Below are positions 1-33,066 of a stretch of 33,500 nt of DNA, piece by piece. This DNA is from Bacteroidaceae bacterium (GTDB lineage Bacteria; Bacteroidota; Bacteroidia; Bacteroidales; Bacteroidaceae). The first letter of the stretch is position 1. Each line of letters opens with the position of its first letter. Position numbers and translations under genes: made by a program. The notes below the pieces were generated by a model, which worked only from the letters and a program-made list of their open reading frames with translations, had not been told where the DNA came from and searched no databases. The DNA is taken from assembly GCA_017534815.1 (NCBI GenBank), contig JAFXVS010000033.1, positions 1 to 33,500 of the forward strand, in the 5' to 3' direction.

Positions 1-886
1 CGACCGTCAGCGGGAACGCGGCATCTATCGAGTGACGCTGGTGGGCGGAGCGGTGAACGTGGTGCTGCTGCTCTTCAAGTTCGTGGCGGGCATCGTGGGA
101 CACAGTGCCGCCATGGTGGCCGACGCCATCCACTCGATGAGCGACTTCGTGACCGACGTCATCGTGCTTGTCTTCGTACGCATCAGCGGCAAACCGAAAG
201 ACAAGTCGCACGACTATGGGCACGGCAAGTACGAAACACTGGCAATGACCATCATCGGCATCGCACTCCTCGCTGTCGCGCTCGGCATCCTCTACAGCGG
301 CGTGATGAAGATTGTGGCATGGGTGAACGGCGAGTCGCTGGAGGCTCCCGGCATGTTGGCACTCTGGGCGGCCCTGCTGTCGGTGGTGCTGAAGGAGGCC
401 GTCTATCGCTACTCGATGGTGAAAGCTCGCCAACTCCAGTCGCAAGCTGTGGAAGCCAACGCCTGGCATCACCGCAGCGACGCCCTCTCATCCATCGGCA
501 CCTCCATCGGCATCGGCGGCGCCATCTTTCTGGGTGAACGCTGGACGGTGCTCGACCCCATCGCCTCCGTCATCGTCGGCCTCTTCATCGTCAAAGTATC
601 CATCGACCTGCTCCGTCGCGGCATCGGCGACCTGATGGAGCAATCTCTCCCCGATGAGGTGGAGGCAGAAATCCTTCAACTGGCCGCCTCCGTACCCGGC
701 ATTGCCGAGCCCCACGACCTGCGCACCCGCCGCATCGGCAACCACTATGCCATCGAACTCCACATCCTCATGCCCGGCAACGCCTCCCTGCGCCAAGCCC
801 ACGACAAGGCCGACGAAGTGGAAGACCTCCTAAAAAAACACTACGGCGCGAATACTCACGTCGTAGTGCATGTAGAGCCTTTGTAA
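1..886 (+). CDS. Cation diffusion facilitator (CDF) family metal transporter, 5' end outside the window
   Basis: The reading frame is open from base 2, so the start codon lies upstream; the GTG at 32 is internal. CDF proteins export divalent metals such as Zn, Fe or Mn from the cytoplasm by proton antiport. What is visible: hydrophobic helices, the family metal-site motif ADAIHSMSDFVTD in an early helix, a second HHRSDALSS motif in a later helix, and a C-terminal cytoplasmic ferredoxin-like domain with several histidines (ending HVVVHVEPL). About 295 residues are present, close to full family length. It ends in TAA, only 7 bp from the end of the convergent small peptide gene. The metal cannot be deduced from the sequence. 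Confidence 0.93.
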   Translation, partial: DRQRERGIYRVTLVGGAVNVVLLLFKFVAGIVGHSAAMVADAIHSMSDFVTDVIVLVFVRISGKPKDKSHDYGHGKYETLAMTIIGIALLAVALGILYSGVMKIVAWVNGESLEAPGMLALWAALLSVVLKEAVYRYSMVKARQLQSQAVEANAWHHRSDALSSIGTSIGIGGAIFLGERWTVLDPIASVIVGLFIVKVSIDLLRRGIGDLMEQSLPDEVEAEILQLAASVPGIAEPHDLRTRRIGNHYAIELHILMPGNASLRQAHDKADEVEDLLKKHYGANTHVVVHVEPL

Positions 887-2739: not shown

Positions 2740-5700
2740 CTATTTAATGGTTGTTTTCTTTCCATTATAAATATATATGCCCTTCTCAGTCGGCTTACCG
2801 TTCAGCTTGACGCCAGAGATAGTGTACCAGCCATCCTTGAACCGGTCATCGCCGTCAGCCTCAACGAATGTGATGGCAGTTGGCTCGGTGGGTGAACCGA
2901 TGACGGTATTGCTCTCGTAAGCCATCACCTCACGTGTCGTGGCGATGATCTCGCCCTCACGCTCGATGGCGAACGACAACAGCGTCTTCTTGTCACCAGC
3001 GATGCTAAGATAATAGACAGAGTCGATGGGCACAGCCTCACCACGCAGTTCTCCGTCGCTGAATGCCAACAGACGGTCATCATCCTGCAACTCAATGCCT
3101 CGAACACAGGCTGCCACTGACATGTTCTGACCGTAGTCTGTCAAACGTCGTGACTGAGCCACCGTGTTCTCGAAGAAGGCACTTCCAGGCTCGTAGTACG
3201 GATAGCGGAAGCTTGCTTCATTCTCTGCATTGCGATAGAGCATATAGCCCTCGCCTGGCTTCATGTACTCCAAGGAGCCAGACCAATAACCACTGCCATT
3301 GGAAAGTTCTGTATAGACTGCAAACTCTTCGCGGCTCTTCACCACATCGCGGTTGCGAGCAATACCTGTGTAGTCAGCCATTGCTGTGGTGACTGGCAGG
3401 TTCACCAGCGGCGTGTAGCCGATGCTGTTCCAGCCGTGCTTGACATGGATGGTTCGCTGACTCTCATTCTTCAGCGGATTGCCAGGAATCTCTGCCGTCA
3501 TGTAGTCGCTCACATGGATACGATAGCTCCGTTCGTTCAAGATGATCATATCATTCATGTCACCCGTCTTGTTCGACAGCCACATGCCCAGCTTCTTATT
3601 AAAGATGTAGGTGAAGTCCTCCGTGTCATCCGTCAAGATGTCGCCATCATGCCAATCGAAGCCTGCGAACATCTTCAGCGGCTCACGATAGTATCTGCTT
3701 GCCACGTTGATGGACACCCAGTTCCACCCTGGAACCACAGTGATTTGCTGGTAGTAGAGCGAGCCTGCCGTCATCATCACTGGTGCATCCACGGAACCCA
3801 CGAGCTCGCTGGCCGTGAAGGTCACCGTCGGGTCGGTATCCAGTAGGAGAATCTGACCAGTCTGGTGATGCCACAGTTTGAAGGTAAGCGGCTTCTTCGA
3901 TACGGCGTCGCTGTCGAAGAGCGTCATGAAGAGCTGGCTCTGTCCCGTGTTGGGGTTGTAACTGATGTTGCTCACACCCACACAACTTCCATCTTCAGCA
4001 AAAGCACCGACCTTGTCTTCCTTGTCTGTCACGAGTGCATCGCCCAAACGAACTTGTCCAACCAGGTTCATCGAGAAGTGCTTCTTTTCCTCTTCGACTG
4101 TCCACATTGGAGTGTCACCATTCTTACGGATGCTCAGTGCCAAAGGTTCAGACAGGTCATTCTCATCAGTCAGGTAGATGAGCTCGTCGTATGTACCCAC
4201 GTTCAGGTCTGCGCTCACAGTGAAGTGCAGCGTCTGTTCACCCAGCGGCTCAATCTGATCAGTTTCTTTATCGACAGTAAGCCATCTCGGCAGGTTCTCC
4301 ACCCTATAAGTCTGAGTGGAACCACTGTTGTTCGTCACCTTCACATCGAAGTCATACGTACCACTCTCTCGTCCGCCATAGAAACTCTCTTCCCTACTCT
4401 TGGTCTCCCAACGCAGCGGGTTGCGATCGATGAAGAAAGCAGACGTGACAGGCGAAGCCAAATAGTTACCGTTCAAGTCAGGAATATCCGTCACCGTGAC
4501 AAAGACGTGACGCTTGTTGATACGAGCATCCTTCTCGTCGATGTTGACCAGCAGTTGGTTGTCGCGTCCCACGAAACTGAAGTTCAGGTTGCGCAGTTCC
4601 ATGCTGGCCTGTACAGGTGCGCCAAAAATCTGCTCGATATGACTCATCACGAAGTCCACAGGCTCCACAAATACAGTGTCTTTCTTCTCGATGACGTTTC
4701 CGTGATCATCATACTCAATCACCTGATTCATGGCGTAAGGCCTCAGTTCCAAATTATTGTTCGACTGTCTCTCCTGACGGTTGAAGCCCATGTACACAAG
4801 CAGACCTTTCTCATCTCCACGAGGGCTCTTGGTGCTGTAGCGTTTCAGCAGCGGTGGTGGCAATGCCTGAGCGAAGAGACAGATTTCATCGAGGTTACCC
4901 GTCAAAGCATTCTGGCTGTGCAGCGTCGTCACATCCGATCCAGCATTATGCCAAACCATGTTGCCCACATAGAAGTCCTCGCCCGACATACCACCTAAAG
5001 TGTCAGTGGAGAAGGATGCACGCAGCACACGATCCACATAGATGTCGGCCACCTTATGCGAACGATCCACAGTCATAGCGAAATGATGCCAAGTGTCATC
5101 AGCCCACTGCTTGCCCAACTTGATTTCATTTCCGTAGGTACGATATTTCAGTTGACCGCCTTCGAAGCCAATGAAGAACTTGTTCTTAGCGTCAGTATCC
5201 GTCTTGTAGCCAGAACCGTTACTGATGAGGGCACCCTGTCCACGTTCCGTCTTAAACCAGAACATCAGCGTGTAGTCCGATTCAGCACTACGTGCGACCT
5301 TCTTCTCACTCATCTGCAGACCCTTCACAGGCTTCTGCTCGTTGAAGTCAAGATGGAGCGACATGCCTCGTGGCAGCGCCCAAGAAGCTCCATGCAACTC
5401 TGCGTTAGCACCCTGAGCCACATCAACAACATAGAGTGTCTCACCGTCATTCATCGGATAATAGTTGGCAAGACCCAACTCATAGCCAGTCAGCATACGT
5501 TTGCCGTAGTTAGTGAGCAAGTCCGTAGTCATCAAGCGGTTCCAAAGACGAGCCTGCAACATGCGTCCGCTATAGTGCATGCGATCACCTGTATCCACCT
5601 CGTTGGTAGCACCAAAGATGAGCGAACCATAACCCGTGTAAGCGACACTTTCGTAAGAGCCGATGATGGAGTCATTGTACAAGTATGCCTTACGATGATC

Positions 5701-26044: not shown

Positions 26045-27043
26045 CTATTTTTTCTTGTCCTCCAGGAAGCGGCGTTTCTTGGCACTCATCGGGCGAGCTT
26101 CCTTCGCGGCTTTGGCGGCGGCACGGGCAGCGTTCTCTGCCCTGCGTTTCTTGGCTTCCGCCTGACTCTGGCGGCGTTTCATGTCACGGATGCGTGCTTG
26201 CTCCTTCCGCTTCTCCAGCTTTTCCTGACGCAAAGCTTCCCTTGCCGCGTCGCGTGCCTCCACTTCCGCCTTGCGTTTCGCGGCCTTCTCTTCCTCACGA
26301 GCCAGCACACGCGCATGATAATCAGGGTCGGACAGGAGTTCCTTGCGGAAAGGTGTGGCGAGCAGGTTCAAGACCAATTTCGTCACTTTGGTGCGGGCAT
26401 AACGCCAACTCTTGCTCTCCGCTTCGCAAAGCACGGTGCCGTCAGAGAGCACAGCTTTGGCGCGGTGCAACCCTTCATCCGTCTCTTCCATCTCGATGCC
26501 GAGCCTTCGCCCGTCTGTCTGTCGCACCATCACATCAGCCTGTGCCAGCAGGTCGCTGTTGCGTTTCTTGTGAAGGAACACATGTTCGCTCTCGTTAATG
26601 ATATACTTGGCTATGAACCAGTTGCGGACATCTTCATCCAGCGTGGCCACATAGCCGAAGACGGCATACACAAAGATGTGCTTGTGGCTGCTGATGTCAA
26701 AATTCTCGCCAGCCCGCACAAACTGCTTCAGTTTCAGTTCGTCGAACAGCCGTTCCAGCCGTTCGCTGCGGAAGAGGTTGCCCAAGACATGTTGCAACTT
26801 CGTACCCTCACCCGTATAATAACGGTAAAGCACCTGCGCCACCATACCCTTGAACACGAACATGCCAGCAAACACATAGCGGCTGTTGCCCTTGTCTGGG
26901 GCTTCGTAGAAGGAGCTGTGCGTCAGCACTTCACACAATTGGTTGCGCGAGAACAGCTTGCGAAGATCCTTATATTGCGGATCGTCCCAAGCCTTGAAAT
27001 TGTCCTTCGGACGAGGTTGCTGTAGTTGTTTTTCCTTCATCAT
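26045..27043 (-). CDS. RNase III-like protein lacking catalytic residues, with a basic C-terminal helix
   Basis: 332 residues from ATG 27043 (or 27040). Residues 20-155 resemble an RNase III fold: VLTHSSFYE at 39-47, then NSRYVFAGMFVFKGMVAQVL where active enzymes have N-x-R-L-E-F-L-G-D-A-V-L, so the signature Glu and Asp are missing; the second acidic site is also absent from HIFVYAVFGYVATLDEDV. Residues 155-230 look like a degenerate dsRNA-binding domain (GLHRAKAVLSDGTVL, ESKSWRYARTKVTKLVLNLL). Residues 245-332 are a highly charged Lys/Arg/Ala/Glu helix. Most likely an RNA-binding protein. The start codon is 5 nt from the 3' end of the UCA tRNA, so the two are probably made as one transcript. 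The RNase III relationship is my reading and was not tested by search. Confidence 0.7.
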   Translation of the reverse strand: MMKEKQLQQPRPKDNFKAWDDPQYKDLRKLFSRNQLCEVLTHSSFYEAPDKGNSRYVFAGMFVFKGMVAQVLYRYYTGEGTKLQHVLGNLFRSERLERLFDELKLKQFVRAGENFDISSHKHIFVYAVFGYVATLDEDVRNWFIAKYIINESEHVFLHKKRNSDLLAQADVMVRQTDGRRLGIEMEETDEGLHRAKAVLSDGTVLCEAESKSWRYARTKVTKLVLNLLATPFRKELLSDPDYHARVLAREEEKAAKRKAEVEARDAAREALRQEKLEKRKEQARIRDMKRRQSQAEAKKRRAENAARAAAKAAKEARPMSAKKRRFLEDKKK

Positions 27044-27047
27044 ATTG

Positions 27048-27140
27048 AGCGGGTGACGGGAATCGAACCCGCGCCTGCGCACTGGAGGTACGCCGAATCA
27101 AGATCTGAAGTCTTGCGTGCTGCCACTACACTACACCCGC
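27048..27140 (-). tRNA. tRNA with anticodon UCA, glycine-type body, long variable region
   Basis: Cloverleaf on the minus strand: acceptor GCGGGTG (27140-27134) pairs with CACCCGC (27055-27049) in 7 bp; U8 A9; D-arm GTGT/GCAC with loop AGTGGCA; anticodon stem CAAGA/TCTTG with loop CTTCAGA, giving anticodon UCA; a 26-nt variable region with stem GCGTAC/GTGCGC; T-arm GCGGG-TTCGATT-CCCGT; discriminator U73 at 27048; no encoded CCA. The G1-C72, C2-G71, G3-C70 pairs and U73 are those of bacterial tRNA-Gly. A selenocysteine tRNA would need G73, an 8-bp acceptor and a 6-bp D-stem, which are absent. It should decode UGA, the codon used 20 times in the neighbouring gene. A class II-sized variable arm is not normal for tRNA-Gly. 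Confidence 0.92.
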
Positions 27141-27155
27141 AACATTTTCGAAAGG

Positions 27156-27187
27156 CAAAGATACGAAGAATCTTACAAACAACAAAA
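27156..27187 (-). promoter_or_regulatory. Promoter of the UCA tRNA
   Basis: Minus-strand TATCTTTG at 27163-27156 and TTTTG at 27187-27183 with a 19 bp spacer, a full Bacteroidetes consensus promoter. The mature tRNA 5' end lies 16 bp downstream of the -7 box. The tRNA is thus expressed independently of the recoded gene, probably together with the RNase III-like gene. Confidence 0.8.
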
Positions 27188-27287: not shown

Positions 27288-30101
27288 TTATTGTGTCAGC
27301 GCGATACTGAATTCCTTGGCCATATTCAATCCGTTCCACTTGTCGTCCACCACGATGACCTTGCCTTTGTGGGTCTTGCCGGCTGTGTAGCCGTATTTCT
27401 TGGCAAGTTCGCCGTTGATTCTCCACTCCAAGAGGAAAGGATTCTGAGCCTTGATGAGTTGCTTGTTCGCGTCGTTGTAGGCAATCCACTTGCCATCAAT
27501 CTTCACCTCTGCACCTGGAATGTCGAAGATGACACCCTTGTAGTAGCCCTTGGTGAGCGAGGCTGTACCTGTGGTTTTCACAGAAGTGGGAATACTTGTA
27601 GGCATGAGATATTTCTGGAAGAAGCCTGCAGGATTGATCAAATGGAGAGGTTGAGTTTCTGGCTGACCTTTGTAATTATCGCTGGTATCTCCATCACCAT
27701 TCAAATCTAATCTTATGTGATCTGTAAGAGAAGTGGATCTAATCATTTTTAGTAAATCATCTACATCTTTTACTTCGGCAAACATCTGAAAACATAGATC
27801 ACACATAGCTAGATTGACATAGTTTGTATATGAGGTAGCATATTTTCAATCTGCTCCGATTATATTTCATGCAGTATCTGAATATGGAAAAGTACGTCCG
27901 GAAAAAAGTATATCAGGATGAAATCATACGGGGAATCTGCTGCTTCATGAGATATTGCCGGTTTGATCCACATTTCACTGAGCATTAGTTCATATAGTGA
28001 CTAATATGTGACTGGTAGCTTGACTATCATTTTTTCAGTTTGCGTAAGAAGGTAATCCATATATGCAGGAAGGATCGGGGTCTATATCTTGCTGAAAAAT
28101 TTTATTCTTTAGAACTCAATTATCTGTAAAGATATTTGATCACGCTATCCAGATAATAAAATTCGGTAGTCTTCAAGCATCTTTCAGTTCTTTCCATGCT
28201 TCTTTCAATGTTTCATTTGTAGAACCTTCTACATATATTGAATTACCAAATATATATATATGATTTGGATTATTGGATGCTAAATCATATAGGGTGTCGT
28301 CCCAACTATTATTGTAAGCAATTTCAAAATGGCAATGTTTTAATAGGGTATTGAGTATGTTCCATTCATCGTGAGCATGGTTGCTGGCTTCTTTCCAAGA
28401 AGCTTGTCAGATTGTTTCATAATTATCGTATCATTTAGGGTATTCTCATGTCATACCTGTATGGAGTCTATCCATTAGTTGCTGGTATTCCTCAGGAGAG
28501 TGAGATCAAGCACCATATTTTCGCATCATGTCTCTAATTTTGGTAGCTTCTGCAACTCTGAGGTGTTCGATATGATTATACGCTTCAACATCTCACCAGT
28601 TTATCTGGCCTATGATAGGCAGGATATCGACTGGAGCGAGGTGTTTGATTGCCATTGCTTGATACTCCAATGGAGCAATCGTCTTGGTGATTTTCTCTTC
28701 CACCGTTTTGCCATTAGACCCTTTAATGGTGATGATGATGGTACATTTCCCTACATTGGAGAACGTGAAGTGATAAGGAGCTTTCACCACTGTTGTCTTC
28801 CCGGCCATCTCGATAGCCACCTGTTGCAGCTGGATGCCGTCGGCGAAGGTGATTCATTTCATGATATCTACTTCTTTATCTACTTGTATGGAGAGGTTGC
28901 GAAGGGTCTCCAAGCCGTAGATGCTGTCGGCGATGAGTGTGATTTCCGCTTTAGCATCCTCTCAATCTTCGTCGGTCACGATGATTTCCAGTTTCCCTGC
29001 CGCATTGAGGGTGGTTCCTGACGTAACGTCTGCACCATTGAGTTTCAAGGCGACTTTGCATTTCTCTGTTCTGGCGTCGCTCCAGGTAGCCACAACTTTG
29101 TCACCTATCAGGAGTTGGCGGTCGGCGATGGTCACTTTGGTTCCTCCAAAGACGTTCACCTTCGCTTGTTTCAGGGTGATGACAGGCGCTTCGTTGTTGA
29201 CGGTGAGCTTGATGTTCACCGTTGAGGTTTTCCTGTCTTTATCCGTGACGGTTATCTCTAAGATGCCGGCTGTTCTGATAGCGCTGCCCAGTTTGGTTTC
29301 TTCGTCGTTCAGTTTGAAGGAAAGGGTGCAGTTGGGCGTGTTGTCGTCCGTCCACGAAACAACGGCTTCGTCTCCCATCAGAATCTCATTGCCTTTCCTT
29401 GAAATGGTCTTTCCCTTGGTGACATCCATTTCTGCCTGGATGAGGGTCACCTCTGGCGCTCCTTCGTTGATGACAATGGTGATAGCGGCTGAAGAAGACA
29501 GACCTTCGCCATCCTTCACAAGAATGGAAAGGGTTCCCTTTTCTTTAAGTGTTGTGCCTGACTTGATGTCCTTGTCATTCAGTTTGAGGGTGATGGCGCA
29601 TTTTTCGGTATTGTCATCTTCCCAAGAAGCAACAACTTCTTCGCCGATAAGAACTTGATTGCCGTCGATGGAAATTTCCTTCCCTCCAAAGATGTCCACT
29701 TTCTCCTTATGGACAGTGACCTCAGGAGCATGATTGACGAGGGTGAGTTTGAGGGAAGTTTTTGCGGAGTTCCCTGAATCATCTGTCACGCTGACTGTCA
29801 GCGTTCCCCTTTCTTTGAGTGTGGCGCCTGTGACGATGCTGTTTCCGTTGAGTGACAGGCTCACCTTGCAGGTCTTGGAATAGTCGTCTTTCCATGATGC
29901 CACCAAGTCTTCCCCTATGAACAGCTGGTTATCATTGATGCGCACAACCTTTCACCCAGTAATGTCCATACTGGATGACAAAAGGCTGATGGTAGGTGGA
30001 GTGGTGTCCACAAATTCATCAGAACTGCTGCATGCCATAAAGAAAGGTGTTGCCAAAGATGCGGCAACTGCTCAAATGAATAAAAGTCTTTTTCAGGTCA
30101 T
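27288..30101 (-). CDS. UGA-recoded lipoprotein: four Ig-like modules plus a large C-terminal domain (20 in-frame TGA)
   Basis: One frame of 937 codons from ATG 30101 to TAA 27288 with in-frame TGA at codons 3, 10, 50, 380, 416, 503, 532, 552, 557, 565, 643, 654, 662, 689, 704, 709, 719, 726, 745 and 752, and no internal TAA or TAG. With TGA as Gly, the start is MTGKRLLFIGAVAAS then MAC, a lipoprotein signal with Cys24. Residues 45-404 are four Ig-like modules of exactly 90 residues (LVASWKDD, VVASWEDD, AVVSWTDD, VVATWSDA at equivalent places). Codon 50 aligns with Gly140, Gly230 and Gly320; codon 380 with Gly110, Gly200 and Arg290. Residues 500-937 form a soluble domain; FIIWIAGSN and ADGKYATSYTNYV weakly suggest a subtilase-like fold, at low confidence. 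Read with the standard code it would be mistaken for a pseudogene. The partner UCA tRNA lies 148 bp downstream. Confidence 0.93.
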
Positions 30102-30407
30102 AGTTTTGGTGCAGGTTTTCGGGATTCCTCCGTCCGCATTGAACGTTTCACCGAGGTTGAGGATTCCGACCGCAGCGAAACGACGTCATTTTACCATGTG
30201 CCTATCATCGGACGGCAGCCGTGACAATTTGCCTCCATATCCCTATGCAGCTTAATAAGTCACACTTTCCATTCCCCGTCCTTGCACCGTCGCTTCGAGT
30301 CTTTCCTTTTCCGCCTGCCGGGCTGTGAACGCCGATAAACGCTACCCCCGACCGCAGCCTCCGCCCCACGCTCGCGAACTGGACTCATCCAGTTAAACAT
30401 CAATTTT
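30102..30407 (-). promoter_or_regulatory. Long leader (about 306 nt) of the UGA-recoded gene
   Basis: The stretch between the promoter and the chosen ATG is G+C-richer than its surroundings and holds several small inverted repeats (ACTGGATGAGTCCAGT near 30380; ACGGC/GCCGT near 30215). Its last part is open in the same frame as the recoded gene from an ATG at 30197, giving 32 extra codons with one further TGA (codon 4 of that version) and the segment LNLGETFNADGGIPKTCTK. I prefer the start at 30101 because a lipoprotein signal follows directly. It matched no riboswitch class I could recall. Confidence 0.45.
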
Positions 30408-30413
30408 CGATTG

Positions 30414-30445
30414 CAAAGTAAGTGAATAAATGTGAAACCGCCAAA
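30414..30445 (-). promoter_or_regulatory. Promoter of the UGA-recoded gene
   Basis: Minus-strand TTACTTTG at 30421-30414 (one mismatch to TAnnTTTG) and TTTG at 30445-30442 with a 20 bp spacer. Predicted transcription start near 30407. Confidence 0.6.
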
Positions 30446-32004: not shown

Positions 32005-33066
32005 ATGAAAAAAATCATTATCGGCATCGACATTTCTAAAGAAAAATTAGATGCAACCGCAATTGACGTGAGAAGCGGGCAGTTACAAATCATCAAACTG
32101 GGCTACCAGACGTTTGAAAACCGCCCCATGGGCTTTCGCAAGATGCTTGTGTGGTCAAGGCATCTCTTGGCTGAGGCGGGACTTGAGGACGTCCTTTTCT
32201 GCTGCGAGACCACGGGAGGCTTCGACCGGGGACTGTGCGACTACATCTACACCAAAGGGCTGGACATCTGGCGGGAGAGCGCCCTCCAGATCAAGCAGAG
32301 CAGCGGCATACACAGGGGAAAGGATGACAAGGCGGACTCCCTGATGATTGCAGAGTATGCCATGCGCCATCTGGACAAGGCTGTCTATTATGAATCCCCG
32401 GACAAGACAGTCCGCGAGCTCAAGGCGCTGCTGCTCTACCGCCACAAGCTGACTCAGGAGAAGACTGCCAAGAAGGTCAGGATGAACCAGCTGAAGAGCA
32501 CTGCTGCCAGAAGCCATTCCATGACCTTCATCCTGCGTGACTCCGCCAGAGGCGTGAGGACACTGGAAAAAAGCATCAGAGAGTGCGACAGGCAGATACG
32601 GGAACTCATTAAAAGCGAAGAGGCGCTTAAAAGGAATTATCATCATCTCACCTCCATCAGAGGCATCAATATCGTCAACGCCACCGCCATGATTGTCTAC
32701 AGCAACAACTTCAGAAACATCAAGGACGCCAACAAGATGGCAACCTATTATGGAGTGGCTTCCTTCAGGACAAAGTCTGGAACCAGCGTCGACAAGAGAG
32801 CCGAGGTGGGACAATACTCCAACTCCACGCTCAGAATGTATATCACACAGGCAGCAAGTTGTGCCATATCAGAGAACGGCATATACAGGGAATACTTCCT
32901 ACGTAAAACAGCAGAAGGGAAAGCCTATGGGATTGTCATCAACAACGTCAAGAACAAACTCATACACCTTGCCTTCTCATTAGTCAAGAACGACATGGAT
33001 TATGAGCAGAATCATGAACTGATGAGGGTGCAAAATGAGAAAAATGTGAAATCGTCTCACAATTAG
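32005..33066 (+). CDS. IS110-family DEDD transposase
   Basis: 353 residues, full length. N-terminal RuvC-like DEDD domain: IIIGIDISKEKLDA (Asp9), CCETTGGFDRG (Glu68) and HRGKDDKADSLMIAEYA (Asp pair). A long coiled region (QEKTAKKVRMNQLK, SIRECDRQIRELIKSEEAL) is followed by the C-terminal Transposase_20-type domain: LTSIRGINIVNATAMIVYS and YYGVASFRTKSGTSVDKRA, with the expected serine. Such enzymes act with a bridge RNA to move the element through a circular intermediate. The frame is intact and has no in-frame TGA; the stop is TAG. Confidence 0.95.
   Translation: MKKIIIGIDISKEKLDATAIDVRSGQLQIIKLGYQTFENRPMGFRKMLVWSRHLLAEAGLEDVLFCCETTGGFDRGLCDYIYTKGLDIWRESALQIKQSSGIHRGKDDKADSLMIAEYAMRHLDKAVYYESPDKTVRELKALLLYRHKLTQEKTAKKVRMNQLKSTAARSHSMTFILRDSARGVRTLEKSIRECDRQIRELIKSEEALKRNYHHLTSIRGINIVNATAMIVYSNNFRNIKDANKMATYYGVASFRTKSGTSVDKRAEVGQYSNSTLRMYITQAASCAISENGIYREYFLRKTAEGKAYGIVINNVKNKLIHLAFSLVKNDMDYEQNHELMRVQNEKNVKSSHN

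Follow-up and report, generated by a model that had tools for sequence, protein, structure and literature searches.

The window analysed here, a 33,500-nucleotide (nt) stretch of a Bacteroidaceae bacterium (assembly GCA_017534815.1, contig JAFXVS010000033.1), contains on its minus strand a 937-codon gene with 20 in-frame TGA codons. The gene is preceded by a structured leader RNA and followed by a long-armed tRNA with a UCA anticodon, tRNA(UCA), and a gene for an RNase III-like protein. Based on comparisons with related loci from gut and marine bacteria, we consider it highly likely that these elements belong to a self-contained recoding cassette with its own code, in which UGA is read as glycine and CGA as tryptophan. 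The recoding was found in one or two genes per genome, and the rest of the genome uses the standard code. In the following, loci with the tRNA are numbered with the letter L and genomes with the letter G, G000 being the genome of the window, and the homologues of the window's recoded protein are referred to as family A. The elements of the window are:

30414..30445, minus strand: likely leader promoter (TTTG ... TAnnTTTG), read by eye, which we take to be of the Bacteroidales type
30102..30393, minus strand: structured 5' leader RNA, conserved core 30197-30393, 5' end approximate
27288..30101, minus strand: recoded gene, 937 codons including 20 TGA apparently read as glycine, ending with TAA
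30093..30095, minus strand: UGA at codon 3 (ATG ACC TGA), an early UGA of the kind kept in leader-borne genes
28521..28523, minus strand: CGA codon 527, alignment column 612, where many family A members have Trp; local identity to the Trp-bearing partner 0.89
27156..27187, minus strand: likely tRNA promoter (TTTG-N19-TATCTTTG), read by eye and presumably a match to the promoter consensus
27048..27140, minus strand: long-armed tRNA with a UCA anticodon, acceptor GCGGGTG/CACCCGC, U73, found by ARAGORN and Rfam, 147 nt downstream of the gene
26045..27040, minus strand: RNase III-like gene (PF14622, E 5.5e-6, below the cut-off), acidic signature replaced, basic tail; candidate trans factor

An open frame with TGA as its only internal stop codon

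The frame runs from position 30101 to 27288 and has TGA at codons 3, 10, 50, 380, 416, 503, 532, 552, 557, 565, 643, 654, 662, 689, 704, 709, 719, 726, 745 and 752. Neither TAA nor TAG occurs within it, and both are present on the opposite (plus) strand of the same interval. Not one of 2000 shuffles of the gene was free of TAA and TAG (shuffle means: TAA 23.5, TAG 15.2, TGA 15.1), and at these proportions the probability that all 20 of 20 in-frame stop codons are TGA is 9e-12. The initial annotation had already described the frame and proposed glycine for UGA, and our recount of codons and stop codons agrees with it. The product is predicted to contain a lipoprotein-type signal, four immunoglobulin (Ig)-like modules of 90 residues each and a C-terminal domain common to family A. 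In an alignment of the four modules, TGA codon 50 corresponds to Gly140, Gly230 and Gly320, and TGA codon 380 to Gly110, Gly200 and Arg290; these correspondences and the excess of TGA over GGN in codons 503-752 (15 versus 8, with 5 TGG and 2 TGC/TGT) were both reproduced as first reported. A homologous TGA-rich frame is present in genome G039. Sequencing errors, a worry raised with the first reading, are an unlikely source of the TGA codons because independent assemblies carry homologous TGA-rich frames.

UGA is aligned with glycine in related proteins

Family A homologues, with 1 to 31 TGA codons per matched stretch, lie near the tRNA in 18 of 33 Bacteroidota loci with tRNA(UCA). In 393 genomes of the order searched, none was found beyond the window's, which leaves no standard-code homologue to compare. 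In the family A alignment, from which frames shorter than 120 codons and a 3401-residue gene of the window were left out, glycine faces TGA in 282 of 473 sense pairs at a local identity of at least 50%, followed by Asp (28), Ala (26), Ser (21) and Glu (21). Counted per TGA site, the best partner is glycine in 99 of 169 cases and Asp, the next, in 18. Sense glycine codons face glycine in 1022 of 1531 pairs and TGA in 282, and the control residues Arg, Trp, Cys, Ser, Ala, Asp and Asn face glycine in 0.3-3.2%.

The codons themselves behave accordingly. The genes at L149 and L151 are 91% identical over 600 codons, with 0.048 nonsynonymous (dN) and 0.477 synonymous (dS) substitutions per site; 29 TGA codons are common to both, and three of the four unshared ones face glycine. 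TGA is exchanged chiefly with GGN codons, and in 18 recoded genes it is the commonest glycine codon (238 of 709; the genes with N runs, at L136 and L146, were left out). Its share of the glycine codons in these genes tracks the GC content of third codon positions (GC3; Spearman -0.93, p 2e-8), so that TGA acts like a normal synonymous codon. Repeats were kept outside the counts (L055, L081 and L065, which are the same records as L036, L042 and L043, as well as L143 and L152). The reading of UGA as glycine in family A is thus strongly supported, beyond the internal repeats, by the alignments, the adjoining UCA tRNA, purifying selection and the GC3 trend. The base after TGA is T in 24% of cases, compared with 17% after GGN; this excess runs opposite to selection on a leaky stop codon, and avoidance of a strong termination context after internal TGA codons was not supported.

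Signal-type N-termini and the Ig-like modules suggest that the recoded products are secreted or located at the cell surface, and subtilase-like domains may be present. No Pfam family scored above the cut-off for family A, and no related solved structure was found. A second recoded family, at L042, L077 and L084, matches family A only in a stretch that overlaps the leader, and further small secreted recoded proteins are found at L049 and in Prevotella sp. tf2-5. At L044 (Prolixibacteraceae), two TGA-rich genes lie in tandem, one of which scores above the cut-off for Peptidase_S8 and a secretion-tail domain. The comparison of family A with L044 was insignificant, and a subtilase-like nature of family A is a guess from that locus. 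The recoded protein was found neither in phage records nor in viral contigs, and plasmids gave only five weak PKD/CARDB-type matches with 23-28% identity.

The long-armed tRNA resembles tRNA-Gly

tRNA(UCA) has a 7-bp acceptor stem, a 5-bp T stem and a 4-bp D stem, and its variable region of 26 nt contains a separate stem. The identity set of tRNA-Gly consists of G1-C72, C2-G71, G3-C70, U73 and C35, all of which are present here, and among the host tRNAs listed, the acceptor end GCG..CGC-U is common only to tRNA-Gly. When named genomes were scanned with a tRNA pattern, 41 loci matched, including L072 (see below). The search pattern fixed the acceptor ends, parts of the D-arm, the anticodon and the T-loop, which are hence not independent observations; position 73 was not fixed and is U in all 30 distinct tRNAs, one of them the short tRNA of L072, and two-sided pair changes are seen in the acceptor, anticodon and T stems across this set. 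From these features, it is most likely that tRNA(UCA) is a tRNA-Gly, which reads UGA and is charged by the glycyl-tRNA synthetase (GlyRS) of the host.

After removal of three repeats, 33 loci with tRNA(UCA) belong to Bacteroidota, counting L077, which is titled 'uncultured bacterium'. They are mostly metagenome-assembled genomes (MAGs), many from ruminants, plus Prevotella sp. tf2-5. The tRNA occurs in 4 of 399 genomes of the bacterial family, and the leader in the same four. Within the genus, 2 of 45 genomes searched encode the recoded protein, and both carry the tRNA at 99-100% identity; G044 gave only a 29-nt partial match. The tRNA pattern had no match in the viral_contigs set, and phage records matched only the last 27 nt (19 records). 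Further tRNAs were seen in passing. L072 (153-226, minus strand), from an alphaproteobacterial MAG, is a tRNA-Gly of ordinary short form that has a UCA anticodon and lacks the long arm. A MAG contig titled Akkermansia muciniphila (L074) has a long-armed tRNA(UCA) and no visible partner gene, with only 280 nt downstream. At L046, a tRNA-like stretch with a similar D-arm and no ARAGORN call (417-500, plus strand) lies between two long-armed tRNAs with UCG and UCA anticodons.

CGA looks to be recoded as tryptophan

At 24 of the 33 loci, a second long-armed tRNA with a UCG anticodon lies beside tRNA(UCA), and a further one with a CCG anticodon is present at L044, L068 and L084; ARAGORN calls both types Arg. 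No tRNA(UCG) was found in the window or at L036, L051, L063, L066 and L075, nor at L056, L058 and L069, where there is little flank. tRNA(UCG) has G73 and, at L042, L046, L071, L082 and L084, the acceptor ACGGGCA/TGCCCGT, and thereby resembles host tRNA-Trp (ACGGGAA/TTCCCGT, G73). After masking of CGA, CGG and TGA in the alignment, Trp is the best partner of CGA at 8 of 21 sites and Arg at none (the rest: Pro 3, Leu 3, Asn 2, Val 2 and one each of Tyr, Lys and Ile). For the other Arg codons (CGC, CGT, AGA and AGG), the best partner is Trp at 1 and Arg at 113 of 199 sites (Fisher test on the Trp and Arg counts, 9e-12). CGA therefore looks to be recoded to tryptophan at the better-aligned sites of family A. 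Two CGG sites have a partner, Arg in both cases; at the loci concerned, tRNA(UCG/CCG) was either not found or does not apply. In G421, a long-armed tRNA with a CCG anticodon is present on both contigs (L139 and L140).

A linked RNase III-like protein

The gene behind the tRNA encodes a protein with a weak match to the Ribonuclease III family, and its relatives show a weak match to double-stranded RNA-binding domains. RNase III enzymes carry an acidic signature of the ERLEFLGDA type. In 27 aligned rows of the RNase III-like protein, S/G, V/I and M/Q occupy the positions of the three acidic residues and the motif reads like SRYVFAGMF, so that the protein is probably non-catalytic, as far as its sequence tells. 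The gene is located near tRNA(UCA) at 31 of 33 loci, and the other two (L058 and L069) have less than 70 nt of flank. Among 45 genomes of the genus, the two in which the protein was found also carry the tRNA; among 393 genomes of the order it was found in three, each time at a tRNA locus (the window's, L046 and L075). Its own stop codon is TGA at 10 of 28 loci. It was not found in plasmids, and a search for solved relatives gave only two weak matches.

A structured leader and an early UGA codon

In both families, a leader of 250-300 nt lies directly upstream of the recoded genes. An alignment of 19 leaders predicts 63 base pairs, 32 of them with double changes. Paired cells make up 94.6%, compared with 84.4% after shuffling, and there are 129 double-change cells compared with 39; none of 500 shuffles was as high, and slid versions gave at most 29. 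The leader matched none of 4227 Rfam models up to E 5. In a whole-genome search, it was found in 18 of 25 carrier genomes, as a single copy except for two in G421. Altogether, 26 of the 33 Bacteroidota genomes have the leader, and a search of plasmids did not find it.

Readable genes follow 26 of 27 leaders, the leader of L047 being cut by the contig end. In all 26, the first TGA is early: at codon 3 in 21 genes, at codon 4 in four and at codon 5 in one. The start codons in the main gene reading were picked with a preference for an early TGA, and the leader motif used there missed L045, L046, L138, L139, L140 and L145. For these six leaders, all ATG codons within 260 nt were listed, and each has, 85-92 nt past the core, an ATG whose frame shows TGA at codon 3 in five cases and at codon 4 in L046. 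The ATG-N-TGA column is also visible in the leader alignment. The frames contain between 2 and 36 TGA codons, and several of them run off the contig. As the early UGA is kept even in GC-rich genes with only three TGA codons (L057, L059 and L070), it looks to be under selection. The two leaders of G421 (L139 and L140) both have recoded genes, one of 822 codons with 36 TGA. An IS110-family transposase gene (window 32005-33066, plus strand) lies about 1.6 kb upstream of the window's leader.

The host keeps the standard code

The roughly 387 kb of G000 contain 263 predicted genes, which end with TAA (149), TGA (80) or TAG (34), and the coding signal drops after TGA just as it does after TAA and TAG. 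In 21 other carrier stretches, the stop codons of 142 non-recoded genes are TAA (63), TAG (46) and TGA (33). Release factor 2 (RF2) was found above the cut-off in 22 of 25 carrier genomes, and in a second set of four in G039 and G228. Since TGA ends many host genes and RF2 is usually kept, the recoding is gene-specific.

Related loci in Proteobacteria

Proteobacteria also have long-armed tRNA(UCA) genes, at seven loci of which two belong to the same genome, and a partner gene encoding about 240 residues lies close to each. L048, from a delta-proteobacterial MAG, has a leader-like stretch and a gene starting MH+ with 13 TGA codons, and at L079 (Marinospirillum perlucidum) there is a pair of paralogues, of which one starts MAMR+ and contains three TGA codons. 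The leaders of L048 and L079 are alike (score 65, compared with a mean of 23 and a maximum of 33 in 300 shuffles), and L054 holds a third at the contig edge. The Bacteroidota leader model is not supported at these loci (best 8.1 bits), and neither a leader nor a recoded gene could be recognised in the fetched stretches of L053, L060, L062 and L073. The sequences point to a similar architecture at the proteobacterial loci; the assignment of UGA to glycine itself comes from family A. L060 and L062 represent two copies of tRNA and partner gene in a Lamellibrachia endosymbiont genome, and their fetched stretches hold N runs. At L079, a long-armed tRNA with a CUA anticodon (3785-3879, plus strand) lies near tRNA(UCA), and one recoded frame runs past a TAG for nine codons to a TAA, so UAG may be a further recoded codon at this locus.

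Discussion

We propose that a long-armed opal-decoding tRNA, likely charged with glycine by the host GlyRS, would read UGA in one secreted lipoprotein gene, with UGA remaining a stop codon in the rest of the genome. At most related loci, a sister tRNA(UCG) with a tRNA-Trp-like acceptor, presumably charged by tryptophanyl-tRNA synthetase, would read CGA as tryptophan. The mRNA would start with the leader of about 290 nt and continue directly with AUG-N-UGA. If the special tRNA is lacking, translation would then stop after two residues, or after two to four across genes with UGA at codons 3 to 5. The RNase III-like partner may bind the leader or the tRNA arm, and leader and partner together would restrict efficient use of the special tRNAs to leader-bearing mRNAs and make expression conditional. 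We give this confinement of decoding an even chance. It is suggested by the consideration that genes with 20-36 UGA codons at a drift-like frequency can be expressed only if decoding is near-complete, and that such decoding would come at a cost if it were global. In its full form, the proposal is an orthogonal translation channel, in which long-armed tRNAs (UCA-Gly, UCG/CCG-Trp and, in one gammaproteobacterium, also CUA) act only on leader-bearing mRNAs via an RNA-binding partner; for us, the scales are level on this point. If it holds, one cell would run two codes, the private one being the Absconditabacteria code, a consequence which we judge to be evenly poised. The glycine assignment of the initial annotation is supported, and it had captured only this part of the system: the gene-specificity, tRNA, leader, partner, early UGA and CGA had been missed.

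Several observations weigh against the reading we prefer. Among the residues that face TGA, 191 of 473 are not glycine. For the L044 subtilase, Peptidase_S8 scores Ser (42.3 bits) and Asn (38.1) above Gly (37.6), Ala (37.5) and Gln (36.0), with Trp (26.9) and Cys (26.8) far lower; as Ser scores above Gly, L044 does not settle the residue at UGA. Most tRNA(UCG) have G-U as the first acceptor pair, compared with A-U in host tRNA-Trp, 13 of 21 CGA sites have a best partner other than Trp, mostly at low local identity, and the window's sole CGA lies in a Trp column, yet no tRNA(UCG) was found in its 75%-complete genome. The leader was not found in 7 of 33 genomes (L044, L056, L058, L066, L068, where the contig ends, L075 and L082). 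RF2 was not seen in G000 (75% complete), G176, G416, G424 and G432, and the RF2 match of G417 has one in-frame TGA. A wider code change in such carriers is thus formally possible, though TGA ends 80 of 263 G000 genes. In Proteobacteria, the other Marinospirillum paralogue has TGT at the early position, and the partner of about 240 residues has no detectable homology with the RNase III-like protein by profile comparison (probability 0.1%). Comparison of the loci supports the UGA/CGA code of family A, the tRNA features, the linkage and co-occurrence of tRNA, partner and leader, the leader structure, the early UGA and the standard code of the host; the charging of the tRNAs, the roles of leader and partner and the conditional expression belong to the proposal. 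G424, the 5.9-Mb Prolixibacteraceae genome of L044 with its two TGA-rich genes, may represent a more advanced reassignment or an incomplete assembly.

The same tRNAs and recoding could also operate with no mRNA specificity. The tRNA would then suppress UGA everywhere, and the leader would be an ordinary, condition-matched riboregulator. This is the simplest use of a suppressor tRNA, tRNA and leader each have their own promoter-like motifs, and behind the TGA of host genes a further TAA or TAG in frame follows at a median distance of 27.5 codons, and within 10 codons in 30 of 80 cases. However, 30% of the sampled host genes stop at TGA and RF2 is usually present, and the near-complete decoding implied by genes with 20-36 UGA codons and a GC3-tracking TGA share would burden the whole genome. 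We regard general suppression as possible, if rather unlikely.

We think it very improbable that the genes are decaying pseudogenes partly rescued by a natural suppressor tRNA. Some loci do have only fragments or few TGA codons (L066 and L083), but TGA is the sole in-frame stop codon, as the initial annotation had argued against decay, the close pair described above has a dN/dS of about 0.1, TGA is swapped mainly with GGN, and leader, tRNA and partner gene are linked. Contamination by an organism that uses the Absconditabacteria code, or a block of genes derived from one, is hardly credible either: the same codon changes are described for that group (PMC8629427), but the other genes of the window that were checked have normal stop codons, including one TGA, the system recurs across many independent assemblies, among them those of two named strains, and the hosts stop at TGA. 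That UGA encodes selenocysteine, as the UCA anticodon, the long variable arm and the ARAGORN label tRNA-SeC might suggest, is scarcely conceivable, since tRNA-Sec has a longer acceptor branch, a long D stem and G73, unlike the 7-bp acceptor, 5-bp T stem, 4-bp D stem and U73 seen here, since glycine rather than Cys lies opposite TGA, and since a gene can hold up to 36 UGA codons.

Selenocysteine insertion (tRNA-Sec, SelB and the SECIS element) resembles the cassette as a UGA recoding with a special tRNA, a cis-acting RNA and perhaps a trans factor. The cassette differs in its canonical amino acid, its up to 36 sites in a gene, its 5' leader in place of one element per UGA, a partner that is not SelB-like and the 7/5 build of its tRNA. 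Selenocysteine and pyrrolysine recode single sites, and allo-tRNAs have a 9/3 or 8/4 build. The selC* tRNA-Cys, described in PMC7609411 as having an 8/4 build and Cys identity, and allo-tRNAs are likewise atypical tRNAs of bacteria, some of which have a UCA anticodon, U73 and a linked partner gene, whereas the tRNAs here combine a 7/5 build with Gly-like and Trp-like acceptors. Stop-recoding phages also have suppressor tRNAs that travel with recoded genes in a standard-code host; in contrast, the cassette resides in bacterial assemblies together with a linked leader, and our phage and viral searches matched neither its full tRNA pattern nor its protein. The closest code is that of Absconditabacteria (SR1) and Gracilibacteria, in which UGA is read as glycine via a UCA tRNA, and for Absconditabacteria CGA and CGG are predicted to encode tryptophan (PMC8629427). 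That code is genome-wide, whereas here one or two genes per genome were found to be recoded, TGA is still a stop codon, RF2 is usually present, and there are long variable arms, a leader RNA and a partner gene. Of the marks of a genome-wide UGA = Gly code (NCBI table 25), the alignment with glycine is found here; neither the loss of UGA as a stop codon nor the absence of RF2 is. Our search of the open-access literature, with subscription papers and preprints outside its scope, found no report of this recoding system.

To our knowledge, known codon reassignments apply to a whole genome, organelle or phage. If our reading is true, a cassette providing one or two genes with a code of their own would represent a third mode of recoding and a natural counterpart of the orthogonal translation built by synthetic biologists. 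It would prevent translation of the genes in cells without the cassette and illustrate, in living organisms, how codons might be reassigned while the genome stays unchanged. Standard annotation would split or miss such secreted proteins.

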